A DNA stretch of 37,186 nt, taken from the NCBI GenBank assembly GCA_947508055.1, contig CANNRR010000019.1, positions 1 to 37,186 on the forward strand, written 5' to 3'. Position 1 is the first letter of the stretch. Every line of letters begins with the position of its first letter. Positions 16,592-30,979 of this stretch are shown here, one piece after another. The notes under the pieces are model-generated. The model was not told the DNA's origin and ran no database searches. It saw only the letters and a program-made list of their open reading frames with translations. The stretch comes from Burkholderiales bacterium (GTDB taxonomy: Bacteria; Pseudomonadota; Gammaproteobacteria; Burkholderiales; Burkholderiaceae_C). Both the position numbers and the translations under genes were made by a program.

Positions 16592-16639
16592 GCTACCAAA
16601 ATTGTAGCTGGTTACCCATATTCTACGGGGGATGAAGGC
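16592..16639. repeat. Dispersed hairpin repeat overlapping the 3' end of prmC
   Basis: GCTAC, a 7-nt loop and GTAGC, followed by a tail containing CATATTCTACGGGGG (16617-16631). That 15-base core is identical in the ugpQ copy at 31909-31923. The tail covers the last prmC codons and the stop, and the hairpin lies just beyond the stop codon. Confidence 0.75.
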
Positions 16640-17574
16640 TGAATTGCGTTCAGACCCTTGGCTCCCGGCAGAAACAAAGACCAGCAGCCACCGCTGCAGC
16701 GTTCAATGCCCGCCAGGTCGCGGCGCGACTGCACGTCTTGCAGGCCGGCGGCAGTCAGCAGTGCGCGCACCGCGGCCGCCTGGTCGTAGCCGTGCTCCAG
16801 CAGCAACCAGCCACCGCTGCACAAGCGCGACGGTGCCTGCCCAATGATGGTGCGGATGTCGTCCAGACCATCGCTTCCGCTCGCCAGCGCAGACAGGGGC
16901 TCGTGGCACAGCGCCTCTAAGTGTGGGTCGGCGGCGGCTATGTAGGGCGGGTTGGACACGATGAGATCGAAGAGGCCTTGCAGGGCGGCCAGCCAGTTGC
17001 CGCGCACGAACGCGACCCCCAGACCCAAGCTGCGGGCATTGGCCTGGGCCACTGCCAGCGCGTCGGCGCTGACGTCCACCGCCGTCACCTGCCAGTGGGG
17101 TCGGCGGTGTTGCAGGGCGAGTGCAATGGCACCGCTGCCGGTGCCCAAGTCGACCACGCGTTGGTGCGCGTCCCCGTCGCCCAAGTCCAGTGCCCAGTCC
17201 ACCAGGGTCTCGGTGTCGTCGCGCGGGTCGAGAACGCGCGTGTCCACCTGCAGGGGCAGGCCGTAGAACTCCTTAGTCCCGGTGATGTATGCCATGGGCT
17301 CACCCTGAAGGCGGCGGCGCACGCAAGATTGAAGGGTAGACCAGATGGGTGCTGGCATCGCGTCGGTGTCGTGCGCCAGCAACCAGGCTCGATTCTGCGG
17401 GCCTTGTCCCAACGCGTATAGCGTCAACATCTGCATTTCCAGACGGCTCAGCCCCTGCGCCACCACCCAGGCGCAGCGCTGTTGGATCGTGGGGACGGTG
17501 GGGAAGATCAATTCACACTCCGCACCCATAGCATGTGGGCACACAGTGTGCGGCAAGGGCTGTGAGTAGGCCAA
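16612..17574 (-). CDS. prmC: Release-factor glutamine N5-methyltransferase
   Basis: A SAM-dependent methyltransferase that modifies the GGQ glutamine of release factors. It shows the helical N-terminal domain, 'YITGTKEFYGLPLQVD' near 95, motif I 'VVDLGTGSGAIALAL' near 140, and the catalytic 'NPPY' near 209 that binds the target glutamine. The ORF is 320 residues; an internal ATG at about 17529 may be the true start. The C terminus extends past the conserved end, and the last residues (SPVEYG) are encoded by a dispersed repeat. prfA and hemA, its usual neighbours, lie 11 kb away on the same strand, beyond the secretion/cyclase operon. Confidence 0.93.
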   Translation of the reverse strand: MAYSQPLPHTVCPHAMGAECELIFPTVPTIQQRCAWVVAQGLSRLEMQMLTLYALGQGPQNRAWLLAHDTDAMPAPIWSTLQSCVRRRLQGEPMAYITGTKEFYGLPLQVDTRVLDPRDDTETLVDWALDLGDGDAHQRVVDLGTGSGAIALALQHRRPHWQVTAVDVSADALAVAQANARSLGLGVAFVRGNWLAALQGLFDLIVSNPPYIAAADPHLEALCHEPLSALASGSDGLDDIRTIIGQAPSRLCSGGWLLLEHGYDQAAAVRALLTAAGLQDVQSRRDLAGIERCSGGCWSLFLPGAKGLNAIQPSSPVEYG

Positions 17575-17586
17575 AAGGGACAGGGC

Positions 17587-17739
17587 ATGAGAATCAGGAT
17601 GCCAAAATTGGTGCTAATAGGAGGCATGTTGGTGATGGTCCGGCCAAGCGGATGCTACGCTATTAAAGATTATGGCGAATTGGCTCGAGGCTTGTATACA
17701 CTATTGCCGACGTATGCAATGTTGACCTTAAATTTGTAG
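17587..17739 (+). CDS. Possible small ORF or gene remnant upstream of the secretion operon
   Basis: A 50-codon frame starting MRIRMPKLVLIGGMLVMV, with a basic-hydrophobic opening that could be a signal or lipoprotein leader (Cys at 23), then 'YAIKDYGELARGLYTLLPTY'. A purine-rich stretch precedes the ATG. It ends 40 nt before the transporter gene. The arrangement resembles the beginning of a larger secreted or membrane protein cut short, but I cannot name the family; it may also be chance. Confidence 0.3.
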   Translation: MRIRMPKLVLIGGMLVMVRPSGCYAIKDYGELARGLYTLLPTYAMLTLNL

Positions 17740-17779
17740 TTGCAGCCTTTTCAGCTCTCCATAGGGGTTTCGTAGATTT

Positions 17780-19471
17780 ATGAAATTGCCACATTACGCC
17801 TCCTCACTTTTGATCAGCGCAGTGATGCTGATGATTGGCCAGGCGGTACTGGCTCAGCAGGCACCTTCGGCTGCAAATCAGCTACTGCAAGTACCTGCGC
17901 CTCGGACCATTCAAATGATCAAACCCGATCTGCGGGTTGAGTCTGACAGCCAACAGCCCACTGCAAGCGCCGATACGAACGCGGTGGTTGTCAAAGAACT
18001 TCAATTCACTGGGGCAACCTTAATTGCCGCGGCCGAACTGATTCGGGTGAGTGGATTTGCTGCGGGGGGGGGCTATACCGTTGCCGAATTGCGCAATCTG
18101 GCCTCCACGATTACTTCCCACTACCGCGGTCTGGGGTATTTTTTGGCCCAGACTTATTTGCCCGCGCAGGACATCACGGAAGGGGTTGTGCGGTTCACGG
18201 TAGTGGAAGGCCAATACGGCCAAATCAATTTGCAAAATCGATCGGGTTTGTCGGACGCAGTGGCCAACACCCTTTTGGCTGGTCTGAAGGGAGCAAACGC
18301 CGTTAGCGATTCTGCGCTGGAACGTCGCCTATTGATGCTCTCAGACCTGCCTGGCATCAATGTCAAATCGGTTTTGACCCCAGGTGCGGCGTTCGGCTCC
18401 ACTGACCTCCTGGTCGACATCGCCCCCGGCCAGCCCATCAGCGGCAGTGTGGAAGCGGACAATCAGGGAAACAGCTACACCGGATCCAACCGAATCGGCG
18501 CCAGCATCAACATCAACGAGCCGACCGGGCTGGGGGATGTCGCCACGGCGCGCTTGCTTACTTCCGGCGAGGGCTTGGCTTATGGGCGGGCGTCCTACCA
18601 GGCCCTGATCGGATGGGTCAATGTCGGTTTGGCCTACACGACCCTGCAATACAAACTCGGCGGCGAGTTCGCCAGCACACAGTCGAGCGGAACTGCACGA
18701 ATTGGAAGCGTGTATGTGAACTATCCGCTGATTCGGTCTCGCAATAGAAACCTCAGCGCCCAGTGGTCCATTGACAACAAGGAGTTCGCCGACAGGTCGG
18801 AAAACAGTTCTCCGGTTAGCAGTTCCGACAAGAAGGCCCGTACCAGTTCCGCCGGCCTGCGAGGTGACTTTCGAGATGCATTGGGTAGCGGGTTTGGCAA
18901 CTATGCGTTGACCTGGACGCAAGGCACCGTCAACTTGCAAGATCCGATTGGCCTACGCATAGACTCTATGAGTGCACAAAGCAATGGCACGTTCGACAAA
19001 GTTGCTCTTGCATTCGCCCACCAGCAGGCGATCACGGTCGGTACCGACCTCTTCCTGAGTTTCAACGCGCAGTGGGCCTCCAAGAACCTCGACGCGTCAG
19101 AAAAGATCAGCCTCGGTGGGCCTGGTGGTGTGCGTGCATTTCCTACGGGTGAGGCAACTGGCGATGAAGGCGTTTTGTTTACGCTGGAGTCCAGAACAGG
19201 CTTGCCCAGCCTGACGGAGCGTCTGTCCGGTCAAATACAACTGATTGGATTTGTAGACGCCGGTATCGTAACCCTGAACAAGAATCCATGGGACACCGGC
19301 GCATCCTCCAATCGTCGCGTGCTAACAGGTGCCGGCTTGGGATTTGGCTATATCGGTGCCCGCAACTTGATGATCAAAGCGTACTGTGCATTCAAACTTG
19401 GAGGAGAGGTTGCGACGTCGGCACCAGATACCCCAGGACGTTTTTGGCTGCAGATCAATAGAACTTTTTAG
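17780..19471 (+). CDS. Two-partner-secretion outer-membrane transporter (TpsB, FhaC/ShlB/HecB family)
   Basis: A 563-residue Omp85-superfamily pore that exports the neighbouring exoprotein. A signal peptide occupies about 1-25 (cleavage likely after 'QAVLA'). POTRA-like domains span about 70-215 ('VVVKELQFTGATLIAAAELI', then 'GLGYFLAQTYLPAQDITEGV'). The rest is a beta-barrel ending in Phe (INRTF), the classic outer-membrane signature. The lid-loop motif appears as 'GGPGGVRAFPTGEATGDEG' near 446, with the conserved Arg at about 452. Codons near 95-98 contain an uninterrupted run of nine G (18064-18072). The exoprotein gene starts 30 nt downstream. This is probably the first gene of the operon; I could not assign a firm promoter. 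Confidence 0.93.
   Translation: MKLPHYASSLLISAVMLMIGQAVLAQQAPSAANQLLQVPAPRTIQMIKPDLRVESDSQQPTASADTNAVVVKELQFTGATLIAAAELIRVSGFAAGGGYTVAELRNLASTITSHYRGLGYFLAQTYLPAQDITEGVVRFTVVEGQYGQINLQNRSGLSDAVANTLLAGLKGANAVSDSALERRLLMLSDLPGINVKSVLTPGAAFGSTDLLVDIAPGQPISGSVEADNQGNSYTGSNRIGASININEPTGLGDVATARLLTSGEGLAYGRASYQALIGWVNVGLAYTTLQYKLGGEFASTQSSGTARIGSVYVNYPLIRSRNRNLSAQWSIDNKEFADRSENSSPVSSSDKKARTSSAGLRGDFRDALGSGFGNYALTWTQGTVNLQDPIGLRIDSMSAQSNGTFDKVALAFAHQQAITVGTDLFLSFNAQWASKNLDASEKISLGGPGGVRAFPTGEATGDEGVLFTLESRTGLPSLTERLSGQIQLIGFVDAGIVTLNKNPWDTGASSNRRVLTGAGLGFGYIGARNLMIKAYCAFKLGGEVATSAPDTPGRFWLQINRTF
18064..18072 (+). repeat. Homopolymeric G9 tract inside the tpsB-type gene
   Basis: Nine consecutive G encode part of 'FAAGGGYT' in the first POTRA-like domain. 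Gain or loss of one G would shift the frame near codon 97 of 563 and destroy the transporter. Tracts of this kind are known slipped-strand phase-variation sites in other bacteria; that this one varies is inference. Confidence 0.9.
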
Positions 19472-19501
19472 GCTAACCCAGCAAGCCGTCGAGTTTACAA
19501 A

Positions 19502-22500
19502 ATGAACCACATCCGCAGCCCATTCTGGAAAGACACTTTTGGCACCTCTGTTGCCACCACAGGCCTTGTCGTAAGAACCGGCCAGAATTCTTCAATGGAA
19601 ATGGCAGGCGGTCTCGCAAGCCAGTGCCCTGCACTCAAGGCATTGGGCCTTTGCCTGCTCGGTGCGTTTGGCACCATGGCGCACGCCTTGCCCACCTCAG
19701 GCGTGATCACTGCAGGCAGTGCAACGATCAGCAGCAATGGTGCGAGCAGCCTCAACATCAATCAGACAAGCCAGAACGCGACATTCAACTGGCAAGGCTT
19801 CAATGTTGGCGCCGCTGAGTCCGTCAAGTTTGTTCAGCCCAATAGCAACTCTGTGGCAATCAACCGGGTACAGGGGTCGGACCCGTCGCGCATTCTGGGC
19901 AGTCTTGCGGCCAACGGCAAGGTCTTTCTTGTCAACCCCAATGGAATTTGGTTCGGCAAGGATGCGTCTGTCAATGTGGGTGGATTGGTGGCTTCCACGT
20001 TAGACCTCACCGACTCGGACTTCATGGCGGGCCAGTATCGATTTGACGGATCTGGCAAGGGCGAAGTCAGCAACCTTGGAACCATCCGTGCAGAAGATGG
20101 TGGGTACGTTGTATTGCTCGGCAACAAAGTTGGCAATGACGGGACGATCACTGCCAAGCTGGGAACGGTTTCGCTGGCAGCCGGCAGCGCCATGACGATG
20201 GGGGTGACCGCAGACGGCTTGCTGCATGTCACTATTGATAAGGCTACCCTGAATGCACTGGCGAGTAATGGTGGGCTTGTTCGGGCGGATGGAGGCGTGG
20301 TCTTTATCGCTGCTCAAGCCAGGGATGCGTTGCTCAGCACAGTGGTGAACAATACCGGAATCGTCCAAGCGAATTCAGTTGGATATCGAAACGGACGAAT
20401 CGTTCTGGATGGTGGTGACGCCGGGGTCGTAAACGTCGGTGGTGCGCTTCGTGCCAGCGGGCACACACCGAACACCACCGGCGGAACCGTCATCGCCAGC
20501 GGCGACAAGGTTGTGGTCAATGACCACGCGCAGGTGGATGCCAGTGGCGTTGCGGGGGGCGGAGGCATCTATATGGGCGGCGGTTGGCAAGGCAATGACC
20601 CCGGGATTCGCCAAGCCAGTGGTCTCTACATCTCGCCCAGCGCTACGCTCGATGCCTCGGCTACTCAGAACGGCAATGGGGGTACTGTGGTGGCGTGGTC
20701 TAACACATCCGTTCCGCATTCAACGACCAGGGTTTACGGGTCTTTGTCGGCGCGCGGAGGTGTTGACGGGGGGGACGGCGGGCGCATTGAGACTTCTGGC
20801 CACTGGATTGACGTCGCAGGACTACGGGCTGACGCTGCTGCACCGCGCGGCAAAGCGGGGCAATGGTTGCTGGATCCCGCGGACCTACTGGTGAGCGGTG
20901 TGCCGCCTGGTGTGCCGACCGACGCAACGTTCTCTCCCGGGTCACCGGCAACATTCACATCAGGGGCCGCGACGCCAAATGTTCTGAATACCGACATTGA
21001 GGCCCAATTGAACGCGGGTACTAGTGTTGTATTGCAGACCGGACCAACTGGAGGCGGCATTGGCGATATTTTGATTGGCGCCAGTATTACAAAGGCGGGT
21101 GGAGCAGGCGCTACGCTCACGCTCAACGCAGTCGGAAGTATCGTCTTCGGGCCTGGCATCGGCATCACGTCGTTGGTCGGACCGTTGAATGTCAATCTCG
21201 ATAGCGGCAGCAATATTCTGTTTAACCCTGGCAGCAATATTTCGAGCAACGGGGGCAATATTGCAATGACAGCTAGTGCAGTGTTCGGAATTCCGCCCTT
21301 GGTTGGTACGGGTTTGGAAACGCTCACGATGACAATTCTCGGAGCCACCAGCATTGGACTCGGCTTGGGCGCGGGTGCCATGTCTCTGCCATCTGGTTTT
21401 GCCACCGGGTTTTCAGCGATCAATATTCTGGCTGGCTCCGGTAACGTCACTGTCGGGGGGCTTATGGGCTTCACTGACTCGGTGTCGATTGCTACGTCAG
21501 GAAATATCATCGTAGATCCCCTAAGTGCAATTGCAACCAGCAAGGTTGGGGGAGTCCTGGCACTCGCCGGAGCGAGTTTTGTGAATAGCGCAGGTGCTGG
21601 AGCGGTAACTACTTTTGGTGGTGGGGGTGCTCGCTGGATCATTTACAGCAACGACCCCTCGACAAACACGTTTGGTGGCTTGAGCAGTGGCAGTCAAGCC
21701 ATTTGGGGACAAAGCTTCATTGGCCTTGCGCCAGGGTCCGTTGCACCAGGAAACCGGTATGTATTTGCCACGCCAGGAGCGGTTGTAGCCACTACGGCGG
21801 GCACAGTTACCAAGACGTATGGCCAGTTGGTTAGCTTGGCTGGCAATGTGACGTATAGCGGAACGCCCCTGACCAGTGCCGCAACCTACGGCAACGCTTA
21901 CCAGGATCTTGCGATCAGTGATGTCCTGAGCGTAGCGCCAGCCATCACTTCAATAGGGGCCGCCGCTGGTGCCACCGTTGCTGGTAGTCCGTACGCGGTG
22001 ACTGCTGCAGGCGGCCTGGCAAACTCGGGTTACAGCATTGGCTATGTCAACAACGGCCTGTTGGTTGTCAACAAGGCGACGCTCGACGTCATCGCTCTGG
22101 CTGATAGCAGAACCTATAACGGTCAACCTTACACAGGTGGCAACGGGATTGCCTACAGTGGCTTCTTGAGCGGCGACACTGCGGCTGGTCTTGGCGGAAT
22201 ATTGGTCTATGGTGGCAGCAGCCAGGGCGCAGTCAGCGCGGGCCAATATGGGATTGCTCCCAGTGGCCTCACGAGCAACGACTATTCCATTCGTTATGTT
22301 GGAAGTGCTTTAACCATAAAACCGAAAGAAGTGACGGTCACCGGCTTGGTTGCCGACAACAAGGAATTCGACGGAACCAATATCGCGATCATCCGCAATT
22401 GGGGGATGGTAAACACTGGAGTAGGACCGGAAACCCTGTCACTTAATCATGGCGGTGCAAGCTTCAGCGATGCCGCTGTTGGCATCGGCAAGACCGTCAC

Positions 22501-23380
22501 GGTCGATGGCTACAGTTTGGCCAATGGGGACCACGGTGGACTTGTAAGCAACTATGTGCTCAAGAGTCCAATCGCTACCGCGACGGCCGATATTGTGATC
22601 GCGCCACGGACACAGACGGTTCATGCGGTTCAAGCGTCTGTGAATGTGTTGACTGGGTCCGAGAGCATGGAGTCCCGCAGAGGCGCCTTGCACCTTGACT
22701 ACAGCCAACTCGAGTTGGCTTTCGATGACGTGAAAAAGAGTACTGCCACAGGCAAGCCTGTTGCAAATGCAGCGGCTGGATCGAGCGCAACTGTCAATTT
22801 GAATGGCAATCGCACTGCTGGCACCGCACTTGCGAACGCTTCTTCCGCTCCTGGTAGCCTGGGCAGCATCGGCGTTGGCAATACCTCGCAAGGTCTGCCG
22901 GTTGCAGCCGTTGGGGGTACCCCCGGTGCTATTTCGGGCACCAGTCGTTTTAGTACGCCTGGTCTGTCAAGCCTTCCCAAATCGAGCAGTCGTGTCCCTG
23001 CCGCCGGTACTCCCCCAATGCCTCGGGATGCCTATTTGAAAGGTGCTGCGCGTGCATCAGTAGTGGGGGCAACCACCAGCGGCGCCGCAATTGTCGCAAG
23101 CGTTTCCGGTAGTGGCCAAACCGTCCGTCTGATGGTCACGGTTGCCCCGGGTGATGGATTTGGTATTTCCATCCCCAGGGATCTAATGGATAAGTCGAGT
23201 GCAAAGGGTGATTTGGCGTCGATTGGAGCCACTTCGTCCGGCGGTGCACTGCCAGAATGGCTCACATTTGACCGAAAAGAACTGAGATTGACAGCAACAA
23301 ACGTGGCGCCAGGCGCACTGCCACTCACGGTGAAATTACTCGGGACTTCAGGCAAGTCTGTCGAGGTAACCTTCAAATGA
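19502..23380 (+). CDS. Two-partner-secretion exoprotein (TpsA, filamentous-haemagglutinin-like) with MBG/YDG repeats
   Basis: A 1,292-residue secreted protein. An extended N-terminal signal region (about 1-62, opening MNHIRSPFWKD, ending near 'GTMAHA') resembles the ESPR of TPS substrates. The TPS haemagglutination-activity domain (about 63-300) has 'NATFNWQGFNVG', 'INRVQGSDPSRILGSLAANG' and 'LVNPNGIWFGKDASVNVGG' with the NPNGI signature. Gly/Ala/Asn-rich beta-helix-like sequence follows to about 740. Then come MBG-like repeats (about 760-940, 'KTYGQ', 'RTYNGQPYTG') and a YDG-like repeat (about 941-1035, 'VTGLVADNKEFDGTN'). A Ser/Gly/Pro-rich linker leads to a C-terminal cadherin-like segment ('LPEWLTFDRKELRLTA'). 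Its stop overlaps the FecR gene by 4 nt. A G7 run lies at 20768-20774. Role as adhesin or matrix protein is inferred. Confidence 0.9.
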   Translation: MNHIRSPFWKDTFGTSVATTGLVVRTGQNSSMEMAGGLASQCPALKALGLCLLGAFGTMAHALPTSGVITAGSATISSNGASSLNINQTSQNATFNWQGFNVGAAESVKFVQPNSNSVAINRVQGSDPSRILGSLAANGKVFLVNPNGIWFGKDASVNVGGLVASTLDLTDSDFMAGQYRFDGSGKGEVSNLGTIRAEDGGYVVLLGNKVGNDGTITAKLGTVSLAAGSAMTMGVTADGLLHVTIDKATLNALASNGGLVRADGGVVFIAAQARDALLSTVVNNTGIVQANSVGYRNGRIVLDGGDAGVVNVGGALRASGHTPNTTGGTVIASGDKVVVNDHAQVDASGVAGGGGIYMGGGWQGNDPGIRQASGLYISPSATLDASATQNGNGGTVVAWSNTSVPHSTTRVYGSLSARGGVDGGDGGRIETSGHWIDVAGLRADAAAPRGKAGQWLLDPADLLVSGVPPGVPTDATFSPGSPATFTSGAATPNVLNTDIEAQLNAGTSVVLQTGPTGGGIGDILIGASITKAGGAGATLTLNAVGSIVFGPGIGITSLVGPLNVNLDSGSNILFNPGSNISSNGGNIAMTASAVFGIPPLVGTGLETLTMTILGATSIGLGLGAGAMSLPSGFATGFSAINILAGSGNVTVGGLMGFTDSVSIATSGNIIVDPLSAIATSKVGGVLALAGASFVNSAGAGAVTTFGGGGARWIIYSNDPSTNTFGGLSSGSQAIWGQSFIGLAPGSVAPGNRYVFATPGAVVATTAGTVTKTYGQLVSLAGNVTYSGTPLTSAATYGNAYQDLAISDVLSVAPAITSIGAAAGATVAGSPYAVTAAGGLANSGYSIGYVNNGLLVVNKATLDVIALADSRTYNGQPYTGGNGIAYSGFLSGDTAAGLGGILVYGGSSQGAVSAGQYGIAPSGLTSNDYSIRYVGSALTIKPKEVTVTGLVADNKEFDGTNIAIIRNWGMVNTGVGPETLSLNHGGASFSDAAVGIGKTVTVDGYSLANGDHGGLVSNYVLKSPIATATADIVIAPRTQTVHAVQASVNVLTGSESMESRRGALHLDYSQLELAFDDVKKSTATGKPVANAAAGSSATVNLNGNRTAGTALANASSAPGSLGSIGVGNTSQGLPVAAVGGTPGAISGTSRFSTPGLSSLPKSSSRVPAAGTPPMPRDAYLKGAARASVVGATTSGAAIVASVSGSGQTVRLMVTVAPGDGFGISIPRDLMDKSSAKGDLASIGATSSGGALPEWLTFDRKELRLTATNVAPGALPLTVKLLGTSGKSVEVTFK

Positions 23381-24735
23381 GTGCAAATACCTCCTGGAAG
23401 ACGATGACACGATTTTTCGTGTCACTTTGTGTGCTAACCCTGTCGCTGAGTCACGCCCAGACAGGCGAGCAGGTGTGGGGTTACAAAGTGAAGCCGGGAG
23501 ACCGGCTCATCGATATTTCAAAGGCCTATCAAAAGAGCCCTGATGAGTGGAAAAAGCTGCAGCAAAAGAACGCTGTTCCCGACCCGAAACTGCTCGCGCC
23601 AGGAAAGCAAATTAACATTCCTGTCGCCGACTTGAGACAGGGCAATCCGGTCGCCGAAGCCGTGCTGGTGCACGGGGATGTTCAACGTCTGGACAAGGCG
23701 GGGCAACTCGTGGGGAAGCTATCGTCGGGCGAAGCGTTAAAGATGGGAGATACGGTGCAAACCGGTTCGCGCAGTACATTGACCATACGCTTCGCCGACG
23801 ATTCCCGCATGCTGATTACAGAGAAGAGCAAGATTACCCTGTCGAGTTTGGTCAACTACGGCAAGACCGGCATGGCAGACACCAAAGTTCAGGTACACGA
23901 AGGTGGTACTGATTCCCAGGTCTCGCCTCAGAAGGGGCCAGTGGCACGGTATGAAATCAACACGCCGGCAATCAACCTTACAGTGCGCGGCACTGGATTC
24001 CGGGTTCAAGTGGACGAGGCGTCAGGTGCAACGCGTACGGAGGTAGTTGAGGGCCTTGTAGCCGGGAATACCGATGGCAGTCAGGCCATGATTGCAAATG
24101 GATTTGGCATCATCGCCGAGCCTGGTAAGCCATTGGGCAAGCCCTCGCAGCTTCTTGGTGCACCCGTGCTGAATGCTGCTACACACCTTGTGGAGAGGAT
24201 GCCTGTCCGATTTGAGTGGCAAGCCCTCAGCGGCGCTCAGAGATACCGCTTGCAACTGTTGGCCAGCGTTCAGGGCAATGATGCAATTATTTTTGATGAG
24301 GTCCTGCAAACCACCAAAGTGCAATGGGACGATTTGCCCGATGGTGACTTTGTGTTACGGGTGCGTGGTGTCGACGCAGTCGGACTGGAAGGGGCTAACG
24401 CGGTCATTGGTTTTAAGCTCAAGGCACGGCCCGAACCGCCCGTTCTCAACTTCCCCCAAAATGGGCACGATTCAGCTAGTGAAAAGATATTCTTTCGCTG
24501 GGAATCTGCTTTAGATGCCAATGAATACGTTTTTCAATTGGCCGAGGACGCTGATTTCAAGCGCGTGCTGGCTTTTGTGCCTCAAATTTCAAACAAGACC
24601 CGTGGAATACTGCTTGCACTTCCATCCGGTCAGTATTTCTGGAGGGTCGCCAGTGTAAGCACTGCGGGTAATGTCGGCCCGTATGGCGACGCCTTTACAT
24701 TTTTACAGCAAAGTGCATTGACTCAGGGGAACTGA
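23377..24735 (+). CDS. Periplasmic LysM-FecR domain protein
   Basis: A 452-residue exported protein. The signal peptide ends near 'LSHAQ' (about 28). A LysM domain (about 33-82, 'GYKVKPGDRLIDISKAYQKS', 'LLAPGKQINIPV') should bind peptidoglycan. A FecR domain (about 115-225) includes 'GDTVQTGSRSTLTIRFADDS' and 'EINTPAINLTVRGTGFRVQV'. Two fibronectin-III-like repeats fill about 255-445 ('VRFEWQALSGAQRYRLQL', 'IFFRWESALDANEYVFQL'). There is no transmembrane helix and no ECF sigma factor nearby, unlike iron-regulatory FecR. It starts inside the tpsA stop (ATGA) with a good GAGG Shine-Dalgarno. LysM-FecR proteins are often found beside CHASE2 cyclases; partner binding here is inference. Confidence 0.88.
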   Translation: MSANTSWKTMTRFFVSLCVLTLSLSHAQTGEQVWGYKVKPGDRLIDISKAYQKSPDEWKKLQQKNAVPDPKLLAPGKQINIPVADLRQGNPVAEAVLVHGDVQRLDKAGQLVGKLSSGEALKMGDTVQTGSRSTLTIRFADDSRMLITEKSKITLSSLVNYGKTGMADTKVQVHEGGTDSQVSPQKGPVARYEINTPAINLTVRGTGFRVQVDEASGATRTEVVEGLVAGNTDGSQAMIANGFGIIAEPGKPLGKPSQLLGAPVLNAATHLVERMPVRFEWQALSGAQRYRLQLLASVQGNDAIIFDEVLQTTKVQWDDLPDGDFVLRVRGVDAVGLEGANAVIGFKLKARPEPPVLNFPQNGHDSASEKIFFRWESALDANEYVFQLAEDADFKRVLAFVPQISNKTRGILLALPSGQYFWRVASVSTAGNVGPYGDAFTFLQQSALTQGN

Positions 24736-24767
24736 AGCCGTGAAAGCCCAAGATTGCGTTGAAGACA

Positions 24768-26981
24768 ATGGAACTTGGGCGTCAGCACATGCTTAGCCAG
24801 TGGCTCAGGCGCGTGAGGTGGACCCGCAAGCAGATTTACCAGTCCTTGACACGCGCTCTGCTTCCAATGGGGGTTGTCGCAGCGCTGCTGGCGGTGCAAT
24901 TCCAAGACCCGTTGTTCAGGATGCGCATTCGCGATCAGTCGTTCGATCAGTTGCAAAAGTTGCATCCAGGACCCAATGCCGGGGACATTCCGGTAAGTGT
25001 GATTGCCATTGATGACCCCAGTCTGGCGGCAGTGGGCCAATGGCCGTGGCCACGCACCGTCTTGGCGCAGATTATCGACCGGTTGACCGCCATGGGTGCG
25101 AGAGTTGTGGTCATGGACTTGTTTCTTGCTGAGTCGGATCGTACTTCGCCGGAACAGGTTAAACAGTTCTGGCCCGACAACGAACAGCTCGATGCTTTGC
25201 TTGAGCACTTCCCCTCCCACGACCAGATTCTGGCTGAAAGCTTTGCACGTAGCCGCGTGGTGGCTGGCGTGGTAGCACAAAATTCGTACCCATCGAAACC
25301 CCTGCCACCACGCAGAACCGAAATCCGCAGCCAGGGTGGAGAAGCCAGCGGCTGGTTGAAAGACTGGGCAGGTGGAGTGGGGTTTCTGCCTGCATTGGCG
25401 GCGACTGCAGTCGGGGCTGGAGTACTCACCGTGGTGCCGGATCACGATGGCATCTTGCGTTCGATGCCGTTGCTTAGCATGCTGGGCGGCGAACTTTACC
25501 CGAGCCTCGGGCTCGATGCGCTGAGGGTGTATCTGGGTGCCGACACTCTTACCGCCAGAGTCGTATCCAAACACGATGCTGTCCTGCCCGAACTGCCGGG
25601 CATAGCGGGGATAGTCCTGGGTGGAGCAGGGTTTTTACCGACGTCCAGCGATGGGCGCGTGTGGTTGCGCGCGCGCGCGCAATCGACCGATCGCTATGTT
25701 TCGGCAATTGATGTACTGACGGGCAGCGTAGAACCCAGGCGAATCAAAGATCACATCGTCATCATTGGCGCAACTTCGGTTGGACTCGGCGACATTGTGC
25801 GCACCCCCCTGGGTGAGGCCGTTCCCGGTCTCGAGGGGCACTTGCAATTGATTGAGCAGTTGCTGACGAACGAATACTTGCTTCGTCCGGCCTGGGAGAA
25901 CACCCTGATCACCACGCTCGTACTGGCTTTTGGACTTGCCTTAGCCCTGATGCTGGCGTACCTGCGCCCTGCGTGGTCGGTGGCTTTAACGGGGGTGGGC
26001 ATTGGGGGAGTTTTTGGTCTGTCGGACTGGCTATTCCAGAGTCACCAGCTATTGCTCGACCCGGTATTTCCGACGATATGTTTGACCGCACTGTTCTTGT
26101 CCCTGGCTGTGCCGCGTTATCTGCGCACAGAGCGGGACCAGCGCTGGATCAAGACCGCATTTTCCCGTTATGTCTCACCCAACAGGGTGAGGTATTTGCA
26201 AGAGCATCCTGAAACATTGAACCTTGGCGGTGAATACCGGGAGTGCTCGTTTGTCATGACCGATTTGGCTGGGTTTACATCCTTAATGGAAAAATACGAA
26301 CCCTCCATGCTGTCGTCATTGCTGAATGAATACCTTAACGGCATGATCGAAATTGCCTTTGCCCACGACGGTACGCTGGACCGGATTGTGGGCGATGCGG
26401 TGGCCGTAATGTTTTCTGCCCCCGTCCAACAGCCCGATCATGCTTCGCGTGCCGTAGCTTGCGCATTGGCCATGGATCGGTTTGCCCATGCCTTCAGTCT
26501 GCGTCAGCAGGAGCGAGGTATTCCTTTTGGAAAGACTCGCATTGGCGTGAACACGGGCGATGTCATGGTGGGCAATTTTGGTGGTAAGGTCATGCTGGAC
26601 TACCGCGCGTTGGGCGATGCGATCAACACGGCGGCTAGGTTGGAGACAATCAACGCCCATTTAGGGACCCGCATCAGTGTTAGCGACTCGACCGTAAAAC
26701 AGTGTGTGGACTTTCGTGGCCGCCCGGCCGGGCGGCTGATATTGAAAGGGAAGAAAATTGCCGTTACTGTGTTTGAACCACTTACAGAGGACGAAGAGAG
26801 AAGCGAGCGTGTCGCGCAATACCGCGAAGCCTATCTGCTCATGGACGCAGAATCGCCAGGCGCAGCCGAAGCATTCAAAATGCTGAAGGCTCAGTTTCCT
26901 GAGGATCCGCTGGCGAACTACCATGCACAACGGTTCGAATCCGGTGAAACAGGTAGTCTGGTTGTCATGAGTCGGAAATAA
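24768..26981 (+). CDS. CHASE2-domain class III adenylate/guanylate cyclase
   Basis: A 737-residue membrane receptor cyclase. The order is: one N-terminal helix (about 30-47), a periplasmic CHASE2 domain (about 55-370, 'VSVIAIDDPSLAAVGQWPWP', 'IVIIGATSVGLGDIVRTPLG'), three helices (about 378-450) and a cytoplasmic cyclase domain (about 490-650). The two metal-binding Asp are present ('MTDLAGFTSLMEKYE', D499; 'RIVGDAVAVMFSAP', D543), as are the transition-state Asn and Arg ('INTAARLE', N620/R624). The two base-selecting positions, usually Lys and Asp/Thr, both read Arg (R539, R613), so ATP versus GTP preference is uncertain. ATG 24768 is chosen over a TTG three codons upstream. A (GC)7 run lies at 25667-25680. 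Confidence 0.9.
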   Translation: MELGRQHMLSQWLRRVRWTRKQIYQSLTRALLPMGVVAALLAVQFQDPLFRMRIRDQSFDQLQKLHPGPNAGDIPVSVIAIDDPSLAAVGQWPWPRTVLAQIIDRLTAMGARVVVMDLFLAESDRTSPEQVKQFWPDNEQLDALLEHFPSHDQILAESFARSRVVAGVVAQNSYPSKPLPPRRTEIRSQGGEASGWLKDWAGGVGFLPALAATAVGAGVLTVVPDHDGILRSMPLLSMLGGELYPSLGLDALRVYLGADTLTARVVSKHDAVLPELPGIAGIVLGGAGFLPTSSDGRVWLRARAQSTDRYVSAIDVLTGSVEPRRIKDHIVIIGATSVGLGDIVRTPLGEAVPGLEGHLQLIEQLLTNEYLLRPAWENTLITTLVLAFGLALALMLAYLRPAWSVALTGVGIGGVFGLSDWLFQSHQLLLDPVFPTICLTALFLSLAVPRYLRTERDQRWIKTAFSRYVSPNRVRYLQEHPETLNLGGEYRECSFVMTDLAGFTSLMEKYEPSMLSSLLNEYLNGMIEIAFAHDGTLDRIVGDAVAVMFSAPVQQPDHASRAVACALAMDRFAHAFSLRQQERGIPFGKTRIGVNTGDVMVGNFGGKVMLDYRALGDAINTAARLETINAHLGTRISVSDSTVKQCVDFRGRPAGRLILKGKKIAVTVFEPLTEDEERSERVAQYREAYLLMDAESPGAAEAFKMLKAQFPEDPLANYHAQRFESGETGSLVVMSRK
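25665..25682. repeat. (GC)7 dinucleotide run within an 18-bp perfect palindrome
   Basis: Seven GC units bounded by TT and AA form a perfectly self-complementary 18-mer inside the CHASE2 coding region, encoding part of 'VWLRARAQS'. Alternating GC runs can adopt Z-DNA and can slip; either is inference. Confidence 0.7.
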
Positions 26982-27045
26982 TGGAACTTATCCCGAGCGG
27001 TGGGGTTGTCAGAAACTCCCATTTATACTCACTTGGAGCTAATTT

Positions 27046-27831
27046 ATGAACTCAGCGTTAATCAATTTGCTTGATGTAATAGCGAAACACAGCGATGCCC
27101 ACACTATGGCGGCAAAAGCTATGCCACTTTTCGTAGGCCACATGGGGGCAGACAACGGATCGCTCATGTTGCTGGCGGATGATCGGGTTGTACATAAGGT
27201 ATTGGCTACCAAAGAGACCTTCACTGCGGTGTCCGAGCATAAGGTGCGCACCGTGCTCGACGGAGGGCTGGCAGGTTGGTCACTTAGGCACAGGCAAGGT
27301 GGCTTGGCATCGGATACCGAAATTGATGAACGCTGGGTTTCTATGGGCGATTCAGCGATTGCTTCTGCACTCGTCGTCCCCATGATGAGCCGAAGCACGG
27401 TTATTGGACTGCTTGCGTTCCATCACGCTGATCGGGGCTATTTTCGTGAAGCTCACCTGGCCAGGGCGGCCGAACTGGCACAGTTAGTATCTCCACTGTT
27501 TGATATTGCCCTCATGACAGAGTCATCCATCGCGTCGCTTGCAAAGCTGTGCCAAGGTGCCGGGTATCCGTCAACCGTTCTCGACTGGCACGGCAATGTC
27601 AAAGTGGTGAATAAGGCGATGGAAGAGCTTGACATAGTCTGGGAGGGCGCCAATTTCTCCCAGAGCTTGCTCCCGCGTGAGTTGAATGTTGGGTCAATCA
27701 GGGAGTGCGACTGGGATGGAATGCGAAGATTGACCTCGTTGCCGTACGATGCGTACGCCACCCCGTTTCGCGGTGCCGGCGTCTGGATTCAATTGGCAGA
27801 AAGCGCTATCTCAACATCGCAGAATGCCTAA
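27046..27831 (+). CDS. GAF-domain sensory protein
   Basis: A 261-residue soluble protein with a GAF domain at about 15-160 ('ADNGSLMLLADDRVVHKVLA', 'LDGGLAGWSLRHRQGGLASD', 'SALVVPMMSRSTVIGLLAFH'). A shorter C-terminal segment resembles a degenerate PAS fold ('YPSTVLDWHGNVKVVNKAME'). No kinase, GGDEF, EAL or DNA-binding output is present, so it probably works through a partner. A GGAG Shine-Dalgarno lies 8 nt before the ATG. It follows the cyclase gene by 64 nt and is followed directly by the cNMP-binding gene (TAAAATG), which suggests joint action. GAF domains of cyclases and phosphodiesterases can bind cyclic nucleotides, but its ligand here is unknown. Confidence 0.8.
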   Translation: MNSALINLLDVIAKHSDAHTMAAKAMPLFVGHMGADNGSLMLLADDRVVHKVLATKETFTAVSEHKVRTVLDGGLAGWSLRHRQGGLASDTEIDERWVSMGDSAIASALVVPMMSRSTVIGLLAFHHADRGYFREAHLARAAELAQLVSPLFDIALMTESSIASLAKLCQGAGYPSTVLDWHGNVKVVNKAMEELDIVWEGANFSQSLLPRELNVGSIRECDWDGMRRLTSLPYDAYATPFRGAGVWIQLAESAISTSQNA

Positions 27832-27832
27832 A

Positions 27833-28441
27833 ATGTCCGCCATGAACCCGACGAACACAACTCCTAATGTAGCGCGCCCGCCAACTTCCACGCGAGCCAT
27901 CGCAGAGTTTCCCAGCCACGCTGCCAAAGCGGTTGAGTTATTGACCATGCGCAGCCCGAGCTTTGCGCTGGCACCCAACGAAGCCGCGTGCATTGTCGCG
28001 TTAATGAGGCTCGTGAATTTCCCGGCCGGGACTACGATATTTAGCGCAGGCGATGACACGAACACCGGTTACATGTTGTTGGTGCTAGAAGGTGATGTAT
28101 CGGTAGACACGGGAAATGTGGGGGGCGGGGCCAAGGTTGATATTTCAGTCGTAGGACCTGGTGCTTTGATAGGCGAACTGGCGCTTATAGACGGTGCTCC
28201 GAGATCAGCCACTTGCACTGCTGTCTCCGGGGTAACTGCCGCAGGGCTTGCGGCGGCAGGATTGCAACGCTTGACGGAGACCCATCCGCAAGTTGCTGCC
28301 AAGTTGGCTATTTATATTGCTCGTAATGCGGGTGACCGACTGCGGTCGTTGAGCGAGCAGCTCCAAATGTATGATCAACTGACCGCCACCATGCAGCGCG
28401 AAATTGATCAATTGCGTATAGCCGTTAAACGAAACGGTTGA
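27833..28441 (+). CDS. Stand-alone cyclic-nucleotide-binding (CAP_ED) protein
   Basis: A 202-residue protein. After a Thr/Pro-rich N terminus comes a cyclic-nucleotide-binding domain (about 40-165). It contains 'FPAGTTIFSAGDDTNTGYML' and the phosphate-binding cassette 'GALIGELALIDGAPRSATCT', in which Glu binds the ribose and Arg the phosphate in known family members. The remaining 45 residues are amphipathic and probably coiled-coil ('RLRSLSEQLQMYDQLTATMQ'). There is no helix-turn-helix, so it is not a CRP-type transcription factor. The ATG at 27833 lies 1 nt after the GAF-gene stop; no Shine-Dalgarno is seen, implying translational coupling. It is the last gene of the accessory operon. Confidence 0.87.
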   Translation: MSAMNPTNTTPNVARPPTSTRAIAEFPSHAAKAVELLTMRSPSFALAPNEAACIVALMRLVNFPAGTTIFSAGDDTNTGYMLLVLEGDVSVDTGNVGGGAKVDISVVGPGALIGELALIDGAPRSATCTAVSGVTAAGLAAAGLQRLTETHPQVAAKLAIYIARNAGDRLRSLSEQLQMYDQLTATMQREIDQLRIAVKRNG

Positions 28442-28449
28442 CCCCCGGG

Positions 28450-28467
28450 CACTGGTCCCCGGTGTTT
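28450..28467 (+). terminator. Weak candidate terminator at the end of the accessory operon
   Basis: CACTGG and CCGGTG form a 6-bp stem (one G-U pair) with a 3-nt loop, followed by TTTC. It lies in the 25-nt gap between the convergent cNMP-binding and prfA genes. The stem is short, so this is tentative. Confidence 0.3.
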
Positions 28468-29552
28468 CAGGCCAGACTCAGTTCCAGCGCCGTCAGTTGC
28501 TCGGCCGCTTCATAGGCCTGCAGCGCTTCGATCACATCGTTCAGGTCACCTTCCATGATGGTCAGCAGCTTGTACAGGGTCAGGTTGATGCGGTGGTCGG
28601 TGAGTCGCCCCTGCGGGAAGTTGTAGGTGCGGATGCGGTCGCTGCGGTCGCCACTGCCCACCAGGCTCTTGCGTTCGGCTGCGTCCTTGGCGGCACGCTC
28701 ACTGCGCTCCTTCTCATGGATGCGGGCGGTCAGCACTTTCAGGGCCTGGGCCTTATTGCTGTGCTGGCTGCGCCCGTCCTGGCATTCGGCCACGATGCCG
28801 GTGGGGATGTGGGTGATGCGCACCGCCGAGTCAGTCTTGTTGATGTGCTGGCCACCGGCACCGCTGGCCCGGTAGGTGTCGATGCGAAGGTCCGACGGGT
28901 TGATCTTGATGGCTTCGGCCTCGTCCTGCTCGGCCAACACGGCGATGGTGCAGGCGCTGGTGTGGATACGGCCCTGTGTCTCGGTGGCTGGCACGCGTTG
29001 CACGCGGTGCCCGCCGGACTCGAACTTGAGCGCCCCATATACGTTGTGGCCTTCGATGCGTACTACAACCTCTTTGTAACCACCGAGTTCGCTTTGGGAT
29101 TCGCTGACGATCTCACACCTCCAGCCACAGCGGTCGGCATAGCGCATGTACATACGCAGAAGGTCGCCGGCAAACAGTGCCGACTCGTCGCCACCGGTGC
29201 CGGCGCGGATTTCTACAAAAGCCGGGCGCGCATCGTCCGGGTCTTTGGGTAGCAGCATGCGCTGCAGTTCGCCCTCGAGTTGCGCCAGCTCGGCCGTGGC
29301 GCTGGTGATTTCTTCCTCCGCCATTTCCGCCATATCGGGGTCCGAGCGCATCTCCTGAGCGCCTGCCAGGTCGGCCTCGCGCTGCTGGTAGCGTGCCCAA
29401 CGGCTGGCCACCGCCGCTACGTCGGTATGTTCGCGCGAGAGCTTCAGAAACTGCTCCATGTCCTTCATGATGTCCTCTCGGGACAGCAGGAATTCCAGCT
29501 CGGCCTGGCGATCGGTATAGCGGACCAGTTGTTGACGGAAGAAGGCTTTCAT
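28467..29552 (-). CDS. prfA: Peptide chain release factor 1
   Basis: A 361-residue class I release factor for UAA and UAG. The stop-codon-reading motif is PAT at 188-190 (RF1 type; RF2 has SPF), and the peptidyl-transferase motif GGQ is at 233-235 within '[20 protein letters not shown]'. Both positions match E. coli RF1. ATG 29552 gives the standard start ('[20 protein letters not shown]'); the frame is open for 24 more codons upstream. It follows hemA by about 80 nt in the same direction. Its usual neighbour prmC, which methylates the GGQ glutamine, lies 11 kb downstream. Confidence 0.97.
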
Positions 29553-29633
29553 GGGAGCAGGAATGGGGTGTTGGATCGGGGCTGACAGGAAGGTACCGCT
29601 GAGGGCACCGTGCGAACGATGCAAGGAGAGTCG

Positions 29634-30896
29634 CTAACGACTGGAGTTGCGCAAGAAAAAGTGGGAGATGGCGGAACCTGCGCGCTCACGCGCCTGAGCG
29701 TCGCCGGCGTGCAGCTCTGCCATGGCCCCGTGCAGCATTTTCTGGGTCAAGCCTTTGGACAGGGCTTCGAGCACGGCGTCCACTGGCTCGCCCTTTGCAA
29801 TCATTTTGCGCGCACGGGTCAGTTCAGTCGCACGCCAGGCCTCGGCCTGCGCGTTGAGCTGCTGGATCAGGGGCACGCTGCTGCGCTGGTCGACCCAGTG
29901 CAGAAAGCTTTGCACGCCGGCGTCCACAATGGCCTCGGCCTGCGCCACGGCGGCCTGGCGGCTCGCCTGCGCCGTCTGCACCACGCTGGCCAGATCGTCC
30001 ACGGTGTACAGGTACACATCTTCCAGCGATTTGACTTCGACCTCGATGTCGCGTGGCACGGCCAGATCGACCATGAACATGGGCCGGTGCCGGCGCTTCT
30101 TGAGTGCCCGCTCGACGGCACCCAGGCCAATAATGGGCAGCGTGCTGGCCGTGCAGCTGATGACGGCGTCAAACTCATGCAGGCGGTCGGGCAGATCCCC
30201 CAGACGCATCACTTCACCGCCAAAGCGGCTGGCCAATTTCTCCCCGCGCTCCAGTGTGCGGTTGGCGATGGCGATGGACTTTGGGTTTTTGGCCGCGAAG
30301 TGCGTGGCGCACAGCTCGATCATTTCGCCCGCGCCGACAAACAGTACGTTGACCCGGCCCAGGTCCTCAAACAGATTGCCTGCCAACCGCACGGCCGCTG
30401 CCGCCATGCTGATCGAGTGGGCACCGATTTCGGTGGACGTGCGTACTTCTTTGGCCACTGCAAACGAGCGCTGGAACAGCTGTGACAGCGTGGTTCCCAA
30501 TGCGCCCGCTGCTTCGGCCGCGCGCACGGCGTCCTTGAGCTGCCCCAAAATCTGTGGCTCGCCCAGGACCATCGAGTCCAGCCCGCTGGCCACCCGAAAG
30601 GCGTGCCGAGCGGCATGGCCGTCTTGCAGGCTGTAGGTGTGGGTGCGCAGTGCCTCCGGTGAAATGCCTGCCGAACCAGCCAGCCAGCCCAGCGTGGGTT
30701 CCAGTTCGGAGTGCTCGCCAGCGCAGTAAATTTCGGTGCGGTTGCAGGTGGACACAATCGCTGCTTCCGGCATGCGGCTGAGCGACTGGCGCAGTCCCTG
30801 CAGATGCGGCGCAATCTGGTCCATCGCGAACGCAAACCGTCCGCGCACGTCCAGCGGCGCAGTGGTGTGGTTGATGCCTAAAGTCCAGACGGCCAT
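29634..30896 (-). CDS. hemA: Glutamyl-tRNA reductase
   Basis: A 420-residue enzyme making glutamate-1-semialdehyde, the first committed step of C5-pathway tetrapyrrole synthesis. The N terminus reads '[20 protein letters not shown]', the catalytic Cys is C51 in '[10 protein letters not shown]', and '[20 protein letters not shown]' is the family signature. An NADPH-binding domain follows ('[18 protein letters not shown]'), then a helical dimerisation domain. The start ATG 30896 is chosen over an upstream in-frame start for family length. A promoter is visible at 30980-31007. prfA follows, the common order. Confidence 0.97.
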
Positions 30897-30979
30897 GTAT
30901 TCTTTTGGTGCAACCGTACAGGGTTGCCAGTGAGCAATGGCCACGCCTGAGCGCCGCGATTGCAATTGATTTATCTGCG

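Follow-up and report, generated by a model that had tools for sequence, protein, structure and literature searches.

An operon that may bear on how cells learn what their secreted adhesins do was analysed on a contig of a Burkholderiales bacterium (assembly GCA_947508055.1, contig CANNRR010000019.1); the whole analysed stretch of 37,186 nucleotides (nt) is called the window here. In this operon, two genes of a two-partner secretion (TPS) system, encoding the transporter TpsB and the exoprotein TpsA, are followed by genes for a LysM-FecR protein, a class III nucleotide cyclase with a CHASE2 domain, a GAF-domain protein and a stand-alone cyclic nucleotide-binding domain (CNBD) protein. The first four genes are a conserved unit that is inherited together. 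We propose, at just short of an even chance, that they form a trans-envelope sensor, for which export or binding of the TPS exoprotein would be the input and a cyclic nucleotide the answer.

A conserved four-gene unit with variable edges

A preliminary description of this DNA had listed six same-strand genes in close order, and all six were indeed present by open reading frame (ORF) and Pfam analysis (Table 1). The first two form a type Vb TPS pair, i.e., a TpsB with POTRA_2 and ShlB (E 2.9e-22) adjoining a TpsA with an N-terminal TPS domain (E 5e-37), an NPNG motif at residue 145, and MBG_2 and YDG matches. The remaining four proteins matched LysM and FecR, CHASE2 and Guanylate_cyc, GAF, and cNMP_binding alone, which agrees with the earlier view of the last as a cyclic nucleotide receptor lacking a DNA-binding domain. 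Hydropathy profiles are consistent with export of TpsB and with an inner-membrane location of the CHASE2 protein, for which they show one membrane segment at the N-terminus and two or more further on. With ORF-based coding boundaries, the intergenic distances in operon order are 30, -4, 32 (presuming a cyclase start at ATG 24768, inferred from the 737-amino-acid record P0133; TTG 24759 and other starts are possible), 64 and 1 nt (counted, as is the length of the CNBD protein, from ATG 27833). The overlaps and tiny gaps described earlier were thus found at the tpsA/fecR junction, which is an ATGA, and between the GAF and CNBD genes, whereas the distance between the cyclase and GAF genes is ordinary.

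By tblastn and hidden Markov model scans of fetched neighbourhoods, the order tpsB-tpsA-fecR-cyclase was found to be kept in the window and in L005 (the same as L071), L006, L070, L072 and L073, the cyclase of L073 being truncated by the contig end; a contig fragment, L097, carries tpsA-fecR-cyclase. The 4-nt ATGA overlap of tpsA and fecR is present in all seven (six full loci and L097), and a tpsB homologue is the first or second gene in the five other full loci. A cyclase of at least 70% identity occurs in 6 of 100 genomes sampled from the genus (the window's own genome and the fragment included). The four-gene unit is therefore not confined to the window strain, which answers the genome survey proposed in the preliminary description, in that the secretion and signalling halves are adjacent beyond this strain. 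Linkage was also assessed with equal contig size as a proxy for the same contig, computed on the protein-search rows entered (91 of the 120 cyclase matches listed, P0133-P0223, and 107 of the 120 FecR matches listed, leaving out P0085 and P0121-P0132; the window's own rows excluded). By this measure, 17 of 44 close cyclase homologues had a close FecR homologue on a contig of exactly equal size, and none of 46 more distant cyclases (51-63% identity) did so. A strain-specific accident is ruled out by the same-order loci in other genomes together with this linkage.

The edges of the operon vary. The GAF gene lies downstream of the cyclase in the window, L005, L006 and L072, and upstream of tpsB in L070 and L073. 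Behind the GAF gene, the CNBD gene lies on the same strand in the window, L005 and L072; in L006 it is convergent. The genomes of L070 and L073, G209 and G203 (78% and 91% complete), yielded no CNBD orthologue, and in G179 the orthologue is on a different contig. Since these two genes shift or are missing in some loci, a strict six-gene unit is ruled out. The self-contained six-gene set of the preliminary description therefore holds in three of the six loci, and what stands throughout is its first four genes.

Relatives of the exoprotein, the cyclase and the FecR protein

In TpsA, the TPS part is 57-83% identical to that of 11 relatives, with a middle region of variable length. A linker follows that is only 18-51% identical and consists to 59% of A/G/S/P/T, and behind it lies a C-terminal domain of ~117 amino acids (aa), which is present in every relative of the group at full coverage and 36-81% identity. 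This domain is absent from the TpsA proteins examined outside the window group, and a search with the C-terminal part alone retrieved six TpsA proteins built in the same way, and one weak match in Dyadobacter. A contact-dependent inhibition (CDI/CdiA) toxin system was rejected, as there is no VENN motif and no Pfam toxin domain, and the C-terminal domain is conserved, not variable. It was also observed that TpsA proteins outside the window group carry a single Cys in the last five residues in 11 of 11 cases (L130-L133, L150, L156-L158, L166, L170, L172), and those of the window group in none of seven.

The cyclase retains both metal-binding Asp residues and the Asn/Arg transition-state pair, i.e., its class III catalytic motif is intact. 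Where Pseudomonas CyaB (3r5g) has Lys and Thr in the alignment, the substrate-specifying pair, it carries Arg/Arg and not the adenylate-cyclase-type pair (Lys with Asp/Thr). Within a 100/99 branch of the cyclase tree, the window group (83/83) is joined by a second group, B (80/93). Arg/Arg was found in all 29 sequences of groups A and B and, by pattern, in 116 of 120 homologues among the matches listed, the other four being incompletely matched by the pattern; Lys/Thr stands at this pair in the ordinary CHASE2 cyclases, including that of L130, a locus described below. By source names, the Arg/Arg clade extends over Rhodoferax, Limnohabitans, Gallionella, Sideroxydans, Sulfuricella, Methylococcaceae and Magnetococcus. 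In a sample of 349 genomes of the order, no Gallionella-type second-tier cyclase above 45% identity was found outside the window's own genome. Group B cyclases, counted without the partial group-B-like row G246, have a short FecR protein and an OmpA lipoprotein as neighbours in 20 of 23 loci, the three misses lying within 2.3 kb of contig ends, and have a CNBD gene beside them in 4 of 23. Upstream of group B cyclases, a conserved divergent protein of ~460 aa without Pfam match was observed (for example L084:10674-12038 and L086:6899-8308). A Pycsar system was rejected because PycC models matched the catalytic domain only (best E 9.5e-18) and the CNBD protein has no TIR domain.

The FecR protein was surveyed in 150 genomes of the family with P0003 as query. 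Among the 20 top-scoring hits from genomes other than the window's own (L110-L129), which alone give an unbiased rate since L102-L109 and L137-L143 were chosen partly for nearby CHASE2 coordinates, CHASE2 lies beside FecR in 19, and in the remaining one (L117) the locus is cut by the contig end; TPS genes were found beside none of these 20. The outputs behind the CHASE2 domain are exchanged in such loci, i.e., the partners of LysM-FecR carry histidine-kinase parts (L102, L109, L126, L173), GGDEF-EAL (L111), a cyclase, or no further domain in a short frame (L110). L144-L147 encode stand-alone cNMP-binding proteins, one or two each, behind LysM-FecR, and no CHASE2 was found nearby. The genome of the window also holds a tandem of two CHASE2 proteins (G000:C111, L101), the ordinary arrangement of the genus.

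A separate lineage of double-FecR proteins was found beside TpsB in 17 of the 19 top-hit loci counted (L154-L172; L131, L133 and L149 had been fetched earlier, and G083:C488 was left out) and beside CHASE2 in none of them. The two loci without TpsB (L154, L155) hold the closest relatives of the FecR of L130. One of the 19, L165 (G000:C120), is a second TPS locus of the window's own genome, with a YDG-bearing protein, a double FecR and TpsB, and no CHASE2 in its 10.7 kb contig.

In a different genus of the same family, the locus L130 carries tpsB, tpsA (2339 aa), a double-FecR gene, a CHASE2 cyclase gene and a gene for a GAF-HD protein, in this order, with the same ATGA overlap at tpsA/fecR. 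The FecR tree, which has few columns, several long rows and a midpoint root, places the window group (100/99) inside the LysM-FecR/CHASE2 half, as sister to L110, L111 and L113 (99/94), and L130 in the opposite half (100/99 branch); the cyclase of L130 lies among the ordinary CHASE2 cyclases. Since both proteins belong to other clades, a common origin of the two operons is not favoured, and TPS, FecR and CHASE2 cyclase were apparently joined in one order independently in the window group and in L130, the alternative being a replacement of parts within one older operon. Two independent unions in the same order argue for a working link. The operon of the window is modular in origin and looks, from these trees and neighbourhoods, like a mosaic, with the cyclase from one FecR-CHASE2 lineage, the FecR from another and the TPS genes from a third. 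The GAF-HD (HD_5) protein of L130, encoded behind the cyclase by the fifth gene (L130:3517-5142), showed no BLASTP similarity to the GAF protein of the window. L150 was rejected as an operon of the same kind, its TPS genes being divergent from the CHASE2 cyclase and FecR being absent.

Genomic site of the operon

The genes around the operon are housekeeping genes, and it stands between prfA and prmC. The usual order is hemA-prfA-prmC; a prfA match was present in 48 genomes, 20 of which supplied the 20 loci compared. In 15 of these congeners, prfA and prmC are same-strand neighbours at a distance of 1-110 nt, in the other five they are spaced by 1.7-4.0 kb, and none of the 20 has operon proteins between them (E 1e-20). 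Because it separates genes that adjoin in 15 of 20 congeners, the operon gives the impression of a cassette exchanged by horizontal transfer. When the DNA of the window was compared with the five other full loci, nothing outside the operon was similar, except for two ~150-nt matches to L070; L005 and L072 have 1.3 kb of upstream flank in common with each other. In G209, hemA, prfA and pilB are 95% identical to those of the window, but its operon lies elsewhere in the genome, with 57-71% protein identity and a different gene order, which fits separate acquisition by the two genomes. The prmC beside the operon is only 55-68% identical to that of congeners and may have arrived with it. GC content gave no sign of foreign origin, and a plasmid origin was rejected, the 15 plasmid records that matched FecR all being below 60% identity, with no close relative. 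The prfA-prmC junction itself (window 17575-28466; L180, L184, L189, L193, L194) looks like an insertion hot spot, the five widely spaced congeners carrying other inserts. A promoter and terminator scan of the window, a weak test, gave no sites above shuffles, and Rfam returned a tRNA and nothing else over the window.

Table 1. Coordinates of the operon, its parts and its flanking genes in the window
Feature	Position	Strand	Description
tpsB, outer-membrane TpsB/FhaC-type transporter	17780..19471	+	563 aa; signal peptide, POTRA and ShlB barrel
tpsA, TPS exoprotein	19502..23380	+	1292 aa; NPNG-bearing TPS domain plus MBG_2 and YDG repeats
tpsA variable linker	22622..23026	+	residues 1041-1175; from alignment to relatives
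tpsA C-terminal domain	23027..23377	+	residues 1176-1292; present across relatives of the window group
ATGA overlap, tpsA stop/fecR start	23377..23380	+	conserved in 7/7 loci of the window group, also in L130
LysM-FecR protein	23377..24735	+	452 aa; signal peptide, LysM 36-82, FecR 125-228, then Ig/Fn3-like part
CHASE2 domain class III nucleotide cyclase	24768..26981	+	~737 aa; Arg/Arg at the substrate-specifying positions
GAF-domain protein	27046..27831	+	261 aa; linked, position variable
Stand-alone CNBD protein	27833..28441	+	202 aa, without DNA-binding domain; facultative
prmC-like methyltransferase	16612..17574	-	left edge of insertion
prfA	28467..29624	-	right edge of insertion
hemA	29634-30965	-	beyond prfA

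A possible signal path, its rivals and its precedents

For the trans-envelope sensor, we infer the contacts, the direction of signal flow, the retained C-terminus and the nucleotide made as follows. TpsB would export TpsA, the C-terminal domain of which, behind its flexible linker, would stay in the periplasm or cross it last. LysM-FecR, held on peptidoglycan and made beside this domain through translational coupling, would read its presence, i.e., whether export is stalled, finished, or the exoprotein pulled upon surface binding. By passing the reading on to CHASE2 in the periplasm, FecR would set the activity of the cytoplasmic cyclase; the nucleotide would be read by the CNBD protein where present and elsewhere by other receptors, and the GAF protein would tune the output. 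Precedents come from published work. The C-terminus of FhaB, of the Bordetella TPS pair FhaB/FhaC, is kept in the periplasm and proposed to receive and relay an outside event (PMC8263021), FecR contacts the outer-membrane protein FecA (PMC5498481), and in Sinorhizobium meliloti an outer-membrane beta-barrel receptor, NsrA, is required to activate the CHASE2 cyclases CyaK and CyaD (PMC7529298, PMC13001267). Several points weigh against the proposal. Contact between FecR and TpsA is a guess, and the FecR of the window has no outer-membrane anchor. Compared with the five other full loci, the window is 36-54% identical in the C-terminal domain and 63-72% in the TPS part, so that strong constraint from pairing is hardly evident. 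In S. meliloti, plant-signal perception did not depend on a FecR-domain protein of the cyclic AMP (cAMP) regulon (PMC5498481). Finally, TPS genes are beside group B cyclases in none of the 23 loci, and TPS is thus not essential to the cyclase type.

This last count, together with the absence of TPS genes from 40 LysM-FecR family loci (in the fetched DNA), shows that the halves occur apart, and it favours a rather unlikely alternative in which adhesin and surface-signalling set merely travel together for surface life, the sensor reading something other than TpsA. The behaviour of the operon as a mobile cassette speaks for it as well; against it, fecR adjoins and overlaps tpsA in seven of seven loci, and L130 arrived at the identical gene order with parts of other lineages. 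The signal might also run inside out, which we hold to be equally unlikely: LysM-FecR/CHASE2 would sense the wall or periplasm, and the nucleotide, acting through the CNBD or GAF protein, would set secretion, retention or release of TpsA. Cyclic di-GMP (c-di-GMP) controls adhesin retention, and the control supposed here would be akin to it. The LysM domain suggests wall anchoring, the closest FecR relatives pair with CHASE2-GGDEF-EAL (L111), and biofilm in Xanthomonas is governed by a linked cyclase and CNBD effector (PMC3770947). However, no protease or retention module is encoded in the operon, the gene of the expected effector, the CNBD protein, has no orthologue in two operon-bearing genomes, and the coupled pair is tpsA with fecR, not tpsA with the CNBD gene. 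FecR might instead belong to the secretion apparatus, working with TpsA/TpsB in the periplasm, and the cyclase would then merely report envelope stress from FecR. This would agree with the company that double-FecR proteins keep with TpsB, but the FecR of the window belongs to the LysM-FecR/CHASE2 clade and not to the TPS-associated one (100/99 branch), which makes this reading very improbable.

Compared with known systems, the operon shares parts with each. The BiofilmReg operon of Burkholderia contaminans (PMC5192318) also has a LysM-FecR gene that lies directly upstream of a CHASE2 receptor and starts inside the preceding gene; it consists, however, of a response regulator, LysM-FecR, a CHASE2 kinase and DUF4136, with histidine kinase output and no TPS genes. 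By Pfam and the FecR tree, the window has the same module, an exported LysM-FecR encoded next to a CHASE2 receptor, with Guanylate_cyc and no kinase domain behind it. In the Campylobacterota, a CHASE2 adenylate cyclase is clustered with a FecR-domain protein, located there in the outer membrane, and with a phosphodiesterase and a TPR protein in place of TPS, GAF and CNBD; this cluster, found by annotation only, was proposed to be a single pathway spread by horizontal gene transfer (PMC9239204). The earlier statement that LysM-FecR beside CHASE2 is a known association is thus supported by publication, although the published output is a histidine kinase and the FecR protein of the Campylobacterota cluster is different. 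In the NsrA system, the barrel is the receptor and not a TpsB, and the cAMP receptor is Clr, a CRP-type regulator (PMC7529298, PMC13001267); a pathway of the NsrA-CyaK type was rejected for the window, where the gene upstream of the cyclase is LysM-FecR and the CNBD protein lacks a DNA-binding domain. The cyclase relatives L008 and L009 are without the Arg/Arg pair. FhaB/FhaC differs in a locus described without FecR or cyclase, a proteolytic relay, and a prodomain of ~1200 aa compared with ~117 (PMC8263021). XC_0250/XC_0249 of Xanthomonas campestris likewise links a class III cyclase to a CNBD effector that is no transcription factor, but the effector carries GGDEF, and in the passages considered no TPS or FecR part is described (PMC3770947).

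The FecR-CHASE2 pairing is therefore already published, three papers being found for CHASE2 with FecR, and its union with TPS is unpublished as far as the literature was searched, in line with the preliminary description, which knew of no experimental account of the six-gene set. In that literature, which comprised open-licence papers only and makes absence weak, no work was found that joins CHASE2 or FecR-CHASE2 to two-partner secretion, pairs a CHASE2 adenylate cyclase with a hemagglutinin, or places a FecR domain in a filamentous hemagglutinin adhesin operon. For FecR together with two-partner secretion or FhaB, one review stood among the 20 of 99 matches listed (PMC6650576). CHASE2 is a widespread sensor domain, the cues of which are largely unknown (PMC5192318), and the coupled TPS exoprotein, wall-bound FecR relay and CHASE2 cyclase offer a concrete, testable ligand candidate for it. 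In its boldest form, which is distinctly unlikely, this would be self-monitoring secretion. The periplasmic end of TpsA would act as ligand for FecR, which, anchored on the wall, would relay to and drive an Arg/Arg-clade CHASE2 cyclase with altered or unusual nucleotide choice in place of ordinary cAMP/cGMP usage, TPS, FecR and CHASE2 having been joined in this manner at least twice. The Arg/Arg clade poses a question of its own that can be assayed directly. From the FecR survey, a general rule suggests itself, namely that FecR is an exchangeable connector of outer-membrane inputs to CHASE2 outputs, and the Rhodoferax-type cassette may be how the cell senses the condition of its own surface protein.

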